This document shows positions 21,928 to 23,654 of a stretch of 64,000 nucleotides of DNA, piece after piece. The DNA comes from Halopelagius longus (GTDB lineage: Archaea; Halobacteriota; Halobacteria; Halobacteriales; Haloferacaceae). Under the pieces are notes generated by a model. The model made no database searches. It worked only from the letters and a program-made list of their open reading frames with translations, and was not told the origin of the DNA. The stretch is from the NCBI RefSeq assembly GCF_900100875.1, contig NZ_FNKQ01000004.1, forward strand, positions 1 through 64,000, in the 5' to 3' direction. The position numbers and the translations under genes were made by a program. Position 1 is the first letter of the stretch. Every line of letters begins with the position of its first letter.

Positions 21928-22071
21928 ATGAAAATTACAAAGTTCGTCCTTGCCGCGACTACAGATAATCTCACGCGGGGGAAGACGCTCGAAGCCTCGT
22001 GGACCTCACCGAATCGCTCGGCAGAGGGAAACTACGAATCGTTTGACGATATGACGATTCTCCCTCTCTGA
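21928..22071 (+). pseudogene. Possible aroD N-terminal remnant (47 codons)
   Basis: A start codon 20-25 nt after a good TATA box (tttatatgg, about 21902-21910) opens a 47-codon frame beginning MKITKFVLAATTDNLTRGK. The LAATTDNL part resembles the LAASTDDL N terminus of haloarchaeal 3-dehydroquinate dehydratase. Soon after, the match continues better in another frame (VDLTESLGRGKLRIV), suggesting a frameshift. It lies downstream of the C-terminal fragment, so the two are not one simple broken gene. The call is tentative. Confidence 0.35.
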
Positions 22072-22135
22072 AGTCAGGCGCGTCGAGACCGATCGGGAGG
22101 ATTGGTCTCCAGATTGCAAGATGGTAGAGGAACAA

Positions 22136-22147
22136 AATCTATAAGAG
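22136..22147 (+). promoter_or_regulatory. TATA box for a leaderless transcript starting at the Trp leader peptide
   Basis: The stretch aaaatctataag is an archaeal TATA/BRE-like element centred near 22141. The ATG at 22170 lies ~28 nt downstream, exactly where transcription should begin. No comparable TATA box is seen closer to the TrpRS start at 22336, so the synthetase mRNA probably starts ~165 nt upstream with the leader peptide. Confidence 0.55.
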
Positions 22148-22169
22148 GTACAGCCCCATCGATGTCAAC

Positions 22170-22241
22170 ATGGTGTCCACTTCCCACGCCAATTGCTGGC
22201 GTTGGCACGCGTCTCGGGAAGTGGACAGTATCGCGGTTTAG
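22170..22241 (+). CDS. Putative 23-residue leader peptide with Trp-Arg-Trp upstream of TrpRS
   Basis: An ATG positioned for leaderless translation opens a 23-codon frame ending in TAG (22239-22241). Its centre reads ANCWRWHAS, with Trp codons at 22197-22199 and 22203-22205. Trp is the rarest amino acid, so two in 23 residues directly upstream of a tryptophanyl-tRNA synthetase gene are unlikely by chance. The frame overlaps a 12-bp perfect inverted repeat, and its tail (atc gcg gtt tag) is one arm of a second hairpin. This is the layout of a ribosome-mediated attenuator. Such control is known for an auxiliary TrpRS in Streptomyces; I know of no archaeal case. Confidence 0.6.
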   Translation: MVSTSHANCWRWHASREVDSIAV

Positions 22242-22305
22242 AGTCGGACGGGCTTAACCCGGCGGATTCGACCGCGATGCTCACTCGCTTTCTCGATCGC
22301 ATCGC
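22174..22305 (+). promoter_or_regulatory. Candidate attenuator: nested and mutually exclusive inverted repeats in the trpS leader
   Basis: Four pairings are visible. TGTCCACTTCCC (22174-22185) pairs perfectly with GGGAAGTGGACA (22216-22227). Inside it ACGCCA (22186-22191) pairs with TGGCGT (22197-22202), covering the first Trp codon. ATCGCGGT (22230-22237, end of the leader frame) pairs with ACCGCGAT (22271-22278). GCGATGC (22274-22280) pairs with GCATCGC (22299-22305). The last two share bases 22274-22278, so only one can form at a time. A ribosome reaching the leader stop would cover 22230-22237 and favour the last hairpin; one stalled at the Trp codons would leave the third free. No U-tract follows, so the output could be translational. 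Confidence 0.5.
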
Positions 22306-22335
22306 CTCCAAAGTGACTACGACCACCAAACGCAC

Positions 22336-23517
22336 ATGCCAGCAGAAGACGACTTCACCGTAACACCGTATGCCGTCGAAGGCGACATCGACTATGACCG
22401 ACTCCTCGACAAGTTCGGGGCTGATGCCCTCACTGACGAGCAGAAGGCGAAATTCCCCGACCCCGGCCATCCGCTCGTACGCCGTAACATATTCTATGCA
22501 GAGCGAGACGTAGACCCGTTCCTCGACGCCGCCAACGACGGTAAAACGCATTCCATCGTGACGGGGCGTGGTCCTTCAGGGCCGATGCACATCGGTCACA
22601 TCTTCCCGTTTTACTTCGCTAAGTATCTGCAAGACCAGACTGGAACGCTCGTCTACATCCCGTTCTCCGACGACGAGAAGTACTTCCTCAAAGACGAGTC
22701 GCTGGGCGAAATTAGCGACTACACCCGCGAGAACCTCTTTGATATTCTCGCAGTCGGGTTCGACCCCGAACGAACCCGAATCATCGTAGACACAGCCGAC
22801 GCTGACGTTGTGTACCCGTTAGCAGTAGCATTTGCCAAAGAGGTGACTCAATCGACGGTGGACTCAACGTACGGAGAACCCGAGAATATCGGCCTCTCGT
22901 TCTACCCCGCTGTCCAAGCCGCACACCTCCTCTTACCCCAACTTGTGGAGGGTCGCCATCCGACGCTCGTACCGATTGCGGTCGACCAAGACCCCCACGT
23001 TCGAGTCTGTCGGGACATCGCCGCCAAGGAACGGTACGATGTGGCCAAGCCCGGTGCCTTGCTCTCGAAGTTTCTCCCGAGTCTCGAAGGGCCGGGGAAG
23101 ATGAGTACGTCCGACGATGCACCGAGTATCCATCTCTCAGACGACCGGGAAGCGGTCTTCGACAAAATCCGCACCCACGCTTATTCCGGTGGCCAAACTA
23201 GTCGAGAAGAACATCGAGAACAGGGAGGGAACCCAGAGGTAGACGTCTCGTATCAGTTCTTGTATTACTTCTTTGAAGAACGTGATGAGCGGGTAGAACA
23301 ACTTGCACGCGAGTATCGAACGGGGTCGCTCCTAAGTGGAGAACTCAAGGAGATGGCGGCGGAGAATATTGCGACCTTCCTCGAAGCACATCAAGAGCGT
23401 CGTCGGGCACTCGGTTCGCTCGAAGACGAGTTGGAACAGTTCCGCTTGACAGAGAGTGAGCGACAGGCTGCGCGGCGGCGCACAGGCTACCTCGAGAGTT
23501 CTCTGGTTCAAAGATAG
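22336..23517 (+). CDS. trpS: Tryptophanyl-tRNA synthetase (archaeal/eukaryal type)
   Basis: A 393-residue class I aminoacyl-tRNA synthetase that charges tRNA-Trp. The HIGH motif appears as GPMHIGHIFPFYFAKYLQ (His85-His88), followed by YIPFSDDEKYF, YPAVQAAHLLLPQL and VDQDPHVRVCRDIA, and the KMSKS-type loop is KMSTS (Lys255-Ser259). Many haloarchaea carry two TrpRS genes. Location in an accessory region beside aroD debris and the Trp-containing leader suggests this is an auxiliary, regulated copy. No Shine-Dalgarno precedes the ATG, so reinitiation or coupling after the leader is possible. The next gene follows after 137 bp and is unrelated. Confidence 0.92.
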   Translation: MPAEDDFTVTPYAVEGDIDYDRLLDKFGADALTDEQKAKFPDPGHPLVRRNIFYAERDVDPFLDAANDGKTHSIVTGRGPSGPMHIGHIFPFYFAKYLQDQTGTLVYIPFSDDEKYFLKDESLGEISDYTRENLFDILAVGFDPERTRIIVDTADADVVYPLAVAFAKEVTQSTVDSTYGEPENIGLSFYPAVQAAHLLLPQLVEGRHPTLVPIAVDQDPHVRVCRDIAAKERYDVAKPGALLSKFLPSLEGPGKMSTSDDAPSIHLSDDREAVFDKIRTHAYSGGQTSREEHREQGGNPEVDVSYQFLYYFFEERDERVEQLAREYRTGSLLSGELKEMAAENIATFLEAHQERRRALGSLEDELEQFRLTESERQAARRRTGYLESSLVQR

Positions 23518-23654
23518 AGAAACTCACTCGACGATCAACGTACAACGTTCGCACGCGCTACTCTCGTCTCGCCATCGGAACAGTATCGAGGGCGTTGTCG
23601 GCGAAACGCTCGCCAGACCAAAGAGTGAACCCCATAGGTATCTTCAGTCTAATT

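Follow-up and report, generated by a model that had tools for sequence, protein, structure and literature searches.

The trpS gene of Halopelagius longus is quite probably controlled by ribosome-mediated attenuation that responds to the charging of tRNA-Trp. Attenuation by a Trp leader had been proposed in a preliminary description of the window (the whole stretch of DNA analysed, 64,000 nucleotides). This reading is supported by the in-frame Trp clusters found in 79 of 80 scorable upstream regions, by the location of the promoter at trpS itself in orthologues devoid of leader and by alternative RNA pairings. At the level of sequence comparison, the presence of the codons in frame, the two exclusive helices, the spacing and the position of the promoter are established.

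The trpS locus and its leader ORF

The proposed regulated gene, trpS (22336 to 23517, forward strand), encodes a tryptophanyl-tRNA synthetase (TrpRS) of 393 amino acids. Its product is identified as a tryptophan--tRNA ligase by NCBIfam NF008927 (570.6 bits, cut-off 478); it also matches Pfam PF00579, and relatives with solved structures support the same identity. The signatures HIGH (MHIGH) and KMSTS were recognized by eye. No such leader was seen upstream of the other TrpRS gene of the H. longus genome (L003, C3:847434), whose ORF begins directly after another gene, probably endA according to gene order and published linkage. The attenuator-bearing trpS is therefore the accessory copy in this genome. 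No Trp leader was found before trpC or trpD of H. longus, both of which look leaderless; the genome-wide search for other short Trp leaders relied on a covariance model.

The leader ORF (22170 to 22241, forward strand; MVSTSHANCWRWHASREVDSIAV, then stop) has 23 codons, from the ATG at 22170 to the TAG stop at 22239 to 22241, and is predicted to be translated leaderless. The two Trp codons of its Trp-Arg-Trp motif (22197 to 22199 and 22203 to 22205, forward strand) lie exactly where they had first been placed. They belong to a conserved in-frame cluster and have a predicted regulatory role. The leader was given as about 165 bp ahead of trpS; the distance measured from the leader ATG to the trpS start is 166 nt. 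The TATA box that had been assigned to a transcript starting at the leader ATG was likewise found: CTATAAG (22139 to 22145, forward strand) is located 25 to 31 nt 5' of this ATG.

Among 79 leaders, AT content peaks at -36 to -34, -30 to -25 and -12 to -10 from the leader start. Such peaks are expected when transcription starts at the start codon or within a few bases of it, and those at -30 to -25 and -12 to -10 back the predicted start at the leader ATG. Where the attenuator is present, the region in front of trpS shows no clear AT peak at the distance expected of a promoter. In orthologues devoid of leader (L036, L105, L109 and L121), a TATA-like box directly precedes trpS.

Only six ATG-started ORFs of 12 to 45 amino acids carrying WxW or WW are found in the window (both strands), which corresponds to a chance rate of roughly 0.016 for 350 nt on a single strand. 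Of the boxes at promoter distance from these six, that of the trpS leader is by far the most TATA-like. The decisive evidence that the leader ORF is real is its conservation, as read from the sequences.

The trpS orthologue is encoded at 72 named genome loci and in 135 of the 391 genomes of the class. A W-rich leader is kept upstream of orthologues that are 58 to 92% identical, and a Trp-Arg-Trp-type leader precedes a TrpRS gene in far more than a hundred further haloarchaeal genomes. Almost every upstream region examined has a short ORF with WRW or one of its variants (WQWRW, WRWRW, WHW, WCW, WPW and WWRWW). The reading frame was tested on 90 non-redundant upstream regions, 80 of which could be scored. 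The start codon was defined as the one adjoining arm1 (the 5' arm of a hairpin, see below), and arm1 was picked solely by its complementarity to arm2, which avoids any selection of the frame. The Trp cluster is in frame with this start codon in 79 of the 80 scorable regions, the distance from the start to the first Trp ranging from 5 to 19 codons and differing in whole codons. The comparison of haloarchaeal trpS upstream regions had been suggested as a test, a lack of conservation of the ATG, the Trp codons or the frame being the refuting outcome; the result was the opposite, with a start-to-Trp distance that differs.

Two Trp codons are found in 61 of the 79 leaders, three in 16 and four in 2. 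The middle codon of WxW differs among leaders (CGC, CGT, CAG, CAC, CCG or TGC). A single Trp is found in the leaders of L016, L019, L091-L094, L150 and L155 and in many leaders of a second TrpRS family (see below). In L016, L019 and L091-L094, a lineage partly carried by plasmids, the single Trp lies one codon before the stop (ERRWR, then stop) and the start is apparently GTG. In L136, one TGG is replaced by TGA, which cuts the ORF between the Trp codons (real change or sequencing error). This leader, like the single-Trp ones, weighs against the proposed attenuator.

The frame in which arm2 is read differs among the 79 leaders (+2 in 73, +1 in 4, 0 in 2), and in three of them the stop precedes arm2. 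In L028, L086 and L087, the stop directly follows the Trp codons. Since arm2 is read in all three frames and the Trp codons are kept in frame, arm2 is constrained as RNA and the Trp codons are constrained as codons.

Two exclusive helices in the leader RNA

A perfect 11-bp inverted repeat, absent from the preliminary description, flanks the leader Trp codons and places them in the loop of a hairpin, P1. Its 5' arm, arm1 (GTCCACTTCCC, 22175 to 22185), forms 11 bp with arm2 (GGGAAGTGGAC, 22216 to 22226), with compensatory changes. A second hairpin, P2, includes a 5' strand (AGTATCGCGGT, 22227 to 22237) and a 3' strand (ACCGCGATGCT, 22271 to 22281) in which GCT is nearly invariant. The alternative partner of arm2 is a U-enriched pyrimidine tract (CTCGCTTTCTCG, 22284 to 22295), which is the proposed termination region. 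All these features are on the forward strand.

The RNA fold of 22165 to 22340 has an energy of -71.9 kcal/mol (z = -4.67 versus shuffles). Covariation was analysed in an alignment (A1) of 81 sequences, related ones included. In A1, 90.3% of the cells of P1 and the P2 base are paired, and both sides are changed in 14 pairs, a count that includes related sequences. The covariation of P1 and the P2 base is 0.312, versus 0.155 in shuffles (0 of 500); when they are slid by 1 to 3 columns, just 34 to 46% are paired. Several P1 pairs changed 4 to 7 times on the TrpRS tree (68 rows), which shows that the compensations do not stem from a single inherited change. One clade has GCCAGCGGA as its arm2, and its arm1 itself contains a Trp codon (L051, L067).

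The end of arm2 is separated from a nearly invariant GCTC by about 48 nt (46 to 51 nt in all but 3 of 174 sequences). Folding without arm1 and the loop makes arm2 pair with the tract, at +6 to +14 of GCTC; the probability averages about 0.8 per base (174 sequences). In the alignment, 83.7% of the cells of the arm2:tract helix are paired and 5 pairs covary. The pairing score of arm2 is 14.10 with its own tract. It falls to 13.69 when the tracts are exchanged among genomes (sd 0.07; highest of 500 values, 13.86) and to 12.71 when they are scrambled; the exchange ignores relatedness and gives support, not proof. In the clade whose arm2 is GCCAGCGGA, pairing amounts to -9.2 kcal/mol with own tracts versus -6.8 kcal/mol with those of others.

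Duplex strength is -18.2 kcal/mol for arm2:arm1, -10.9 for arm2:tract and -7.8 for a control located 18 nt downstream. As arm2:arm1 is stronger than arm2:tract, the switch needs blocking of arm1. In most leaders, 8 to 14 nt separate the last Trp codon from the arm2 core, 11 nt being the value for 46 of the 79. From this spacing and the size of the ribosome footprint, a ribosome whose A site holds the last Trp codon would cover arm1, arm2 being at or just outside its leading edge.

Proposed mechanism and rival explanations

Transcription would start at the leader ATG or beside it, which would allow a ribosome to load onto the 5' end of the transcript immediately upon its emergence. When tRNA-Trp is charged, the ribosome would pass the WRW codons and leave, and P1 (arm1:arm2) and P2 would form. 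The U-enriched tract 3' of P2 would then be free and transcription would end there, either intrinsically or through the archaeal factor aCPSF1/FttA. When tRNA-Trp is uncharged, the ribosome would stall on a Trp codon and cover arm1, leaving arm2 just past its leading edge. Arm2 would then pair with the tract, extend P2 and hide the tract, and RNA polymerase would read into trpS. Translation of the leader, stalling, the polarity (stall giving the ON state) and an OFF state due to transcription termination are what we infer from the arrangement.

Termination is the weakest step of this mechanism. Runs of T4 or longer are found in only 13 of the 79 tracts. The T fraction of the tract is 0.38, versus a background of 0.18, and the tract adjoins the 3' side of the P2 hairpin. 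In M. maripaludis, aCPSF1 needs U4 runs (PMC8716108). In Haloferax, T stretches terminate transcription in vivo and so does a hairpin, at 59% (PMC7237163), which leaves room for P2 and the tract as a terminator.

Unlikely, yet the most serious of the rival explanations, is a post-transcriptional output of an otherwise real leader ribosome and RNA switch: the free tract would be a site of cleavage or decay, or the fold would control the translation of trpS. The composition of the tract, which is enriched in pyrimidines and U and rarely a true U run, agrees with this, as does the lack of any Shine-Dalgarno-like motif at the trpS starts (0 of 16 checked), because of which translation depends on another leadered mode. 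However, direct occlusion of the start codon is unlikely, since about 40 nt separate the tract from the trpS start in H. longus and this distance varies elsewhere; moreover, a hairpin beside a stretch rich in U looks like a terminator, and hairpins are able to terminate transcription in Haloferax (PMC7237163). The strong conserved RNA structure would also be expected if TrpRS or another protein bound the leader RNA and repressed its own gene, the Trp codons being incidental. This is improbable given the constraint at the codon level (in frame in 79 of 80 regions, though the nucleotide spacing differs), the occurrence of the structure without Trp codons before a GNAT gene and the sharing of one element by two TrpRS families that are only 31 to 34% identical. 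Neither is there a tRNA-like gene: a search with ARAGORN for a tRNA-like fold in the leader detected no tRNA anywhere in the window.

That the leader encodes a functional small protein is very improbable: the C-terminal sequence RADS/VDS does recur, but this stretch corresponds to the arm2/P2 RNA, for which all three reading frames are in use, and the leaders of L028, L086 and L087 end before it, directly after the Trp codons. Hardly credible, finally, is a chance ORF preceding a trpS gene with its own promoter near 22336; apart from the shortness of the ORF, nothing speaks for it, and it is at odds with the conservation, the covariation and the lack of a clear AT peak upstream of trpS in attenuator-bearing genes.

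Distribution, related systems and significance

The spread of the putative attenuator was examined with a covariance model (R1) built for the element and run on the 391 genomes of the class. R1 matches 180 of them at E<=0.01, including 22 genomes that have weak, near-threshold and chance-like matches alone. Inspected matches with E from 1e-5 to 1e-2 look like chance and are mostly located inside genes. Outside the haloarchaeal order, no R1 match was found at E<=1e-6 in 295 genomes of the phylum. The element is also associated with a second TrpRS family (about 530 amino acids), 31 to 34% identical to the TrpRS of the window. It precedes the gene of this family in 16 of 20 further loci, mostly in genomes that lack a close trpS; a seventeenth, L230, was recognized by reading its ORF (the whole set being L213-L216, L218-L223 and L225-L231).

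A block including the promoter, the attenuator and trpS (approximately 22064 to 23527, forward strand; start between 22064 and 22113, end between 23518 and 23554) is shared by H. longus with species of other genera, Natrinema zhouii, Halogeometricum pallidum and Haloferax mucosum (87 to 90% identity), and its flanks differ. This suggests that the gene travels with its attenuator, promoter, attenuator and trpS apparently forming a mobile unit. In Natrinema zhouii, the chromosome carries one copy (L005) and a plasmid carries another, divergent copy (L016). In L224 (G226:C6), the attenuator is followed by a truncated remnant of trpS, which appears to be a second copy that has decayed.

Some elements precede genes that do not encode TrpRS. 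In two related genomes (G221 and G010), the element (L262:245-392 and L263) is located before a GNAT acetyltransferase gene and has a leader without Trp (MSAPNASAGRSRERTVRSAA and MSALSTFAVTSRERTVRSAA); its signal may be a different amino acid or a ribosome-stalling compound. As these elements are devoid of Trp codons and those of TrpRS genes have them, the Trp codons track the TrpRS genes, which provides a natural control. A one-Trp leader with the element is found before another GNAT gene (L217, G160) and before an ABC exporter gene (L232, G275), contexts that may point to protection against a compound that targets TrpRS or resembles Trp.

Of the features that characterize attenuators, a short upstream ORF with cognate codons is conserved in frame (79 of 80), and computed P1 and arm2:tract are mutually exclusive helices, arm1 being blockable by a ribosome stalled on the Trp codons. 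In E. coli trpL, tandem Trp codons are present in the leader and the position of the ribosome chooses between two mutually exclusive RNA folds. Trp codons in the leader and two exclusive folds are common to both systems. Unlike the haloarchaeal element, trpL controls biosynthesis, relies on Shine-Dalgarno initiation and has a 1:2/3:4 versus 2:3 arrangement; in the haloarchaeal element, arm2 chooses arm1 or the tract, and P2 is present in both folds. T-box riboswitches resemble the element in controlling aminoacyl-tRNA synthetase genes by tRNA charging and differ from it in binding the tRNA directly. No Rfam T-box match was found; Rfam at E<=5 gives just a chance snoRNA hit inside trpS.

The closest known system is the trpRS1 attenuator of Streptomyces coelicolor, described by the title of its report as ribosome-mediated transcription attenuation (Vecchione and Sello 2010, PMC2897330, cited in PMC4787780). 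A leader peptide precedes a second, accessory TrpRS gene there too. The S. coelicolor system involves a bacterial RNA polymerase and terminator, whereas the haloarchaeal leader is predicted to be leaderless and stands at the very 5' end, and what its alternative helix conceals is the U-enriched tract itself; the two are likened by description, not by sequence. In Archaea, TrpY and Tar also control Trp metabolism genes, but they are DNA-binding proteins acting at promoters, without leader peptide (PMC6737238). According to the same 2019 paper, little is known of Trp control in Archaea beyond TrpY.

An archaeal leaderless leader peptide sensing charged tRNA-Trp had been presented as seemingly new. 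In the open-access literature, which was the scope of the search (subscription papers being outside it), no earlier report of an archaeal leader-peptide attenuator was found, in agreement with this claim, and the text of a review on archaeal coupling mentions neither attenuation nor leader peptides (PMC8116511). For Archaea, the element may well be the first attenuator that works through a leader peptide and a translating ribosome, with leaderless loading and with antitermination by pairing away the tract, not by breaking a terminator hairpin. Its RNA chassis has been re-used in front of acetyltransferase and ABC-exporter genes, where the leader codons are different, so it may sense translation stress more generally in haloarchaea. 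Ribosome attenuation needs tight transcription-translation coupling. If the mechanism is true, an attenuator in culturable model haloarchaea (e.g. Halobacterium salinarum, L065) would give a direct in vivo readout of this coupling and of regulated termination by a eukaryotic-type RNA polymerase, and would mean that amino acid control in Archaea also operates at the level of RNA.
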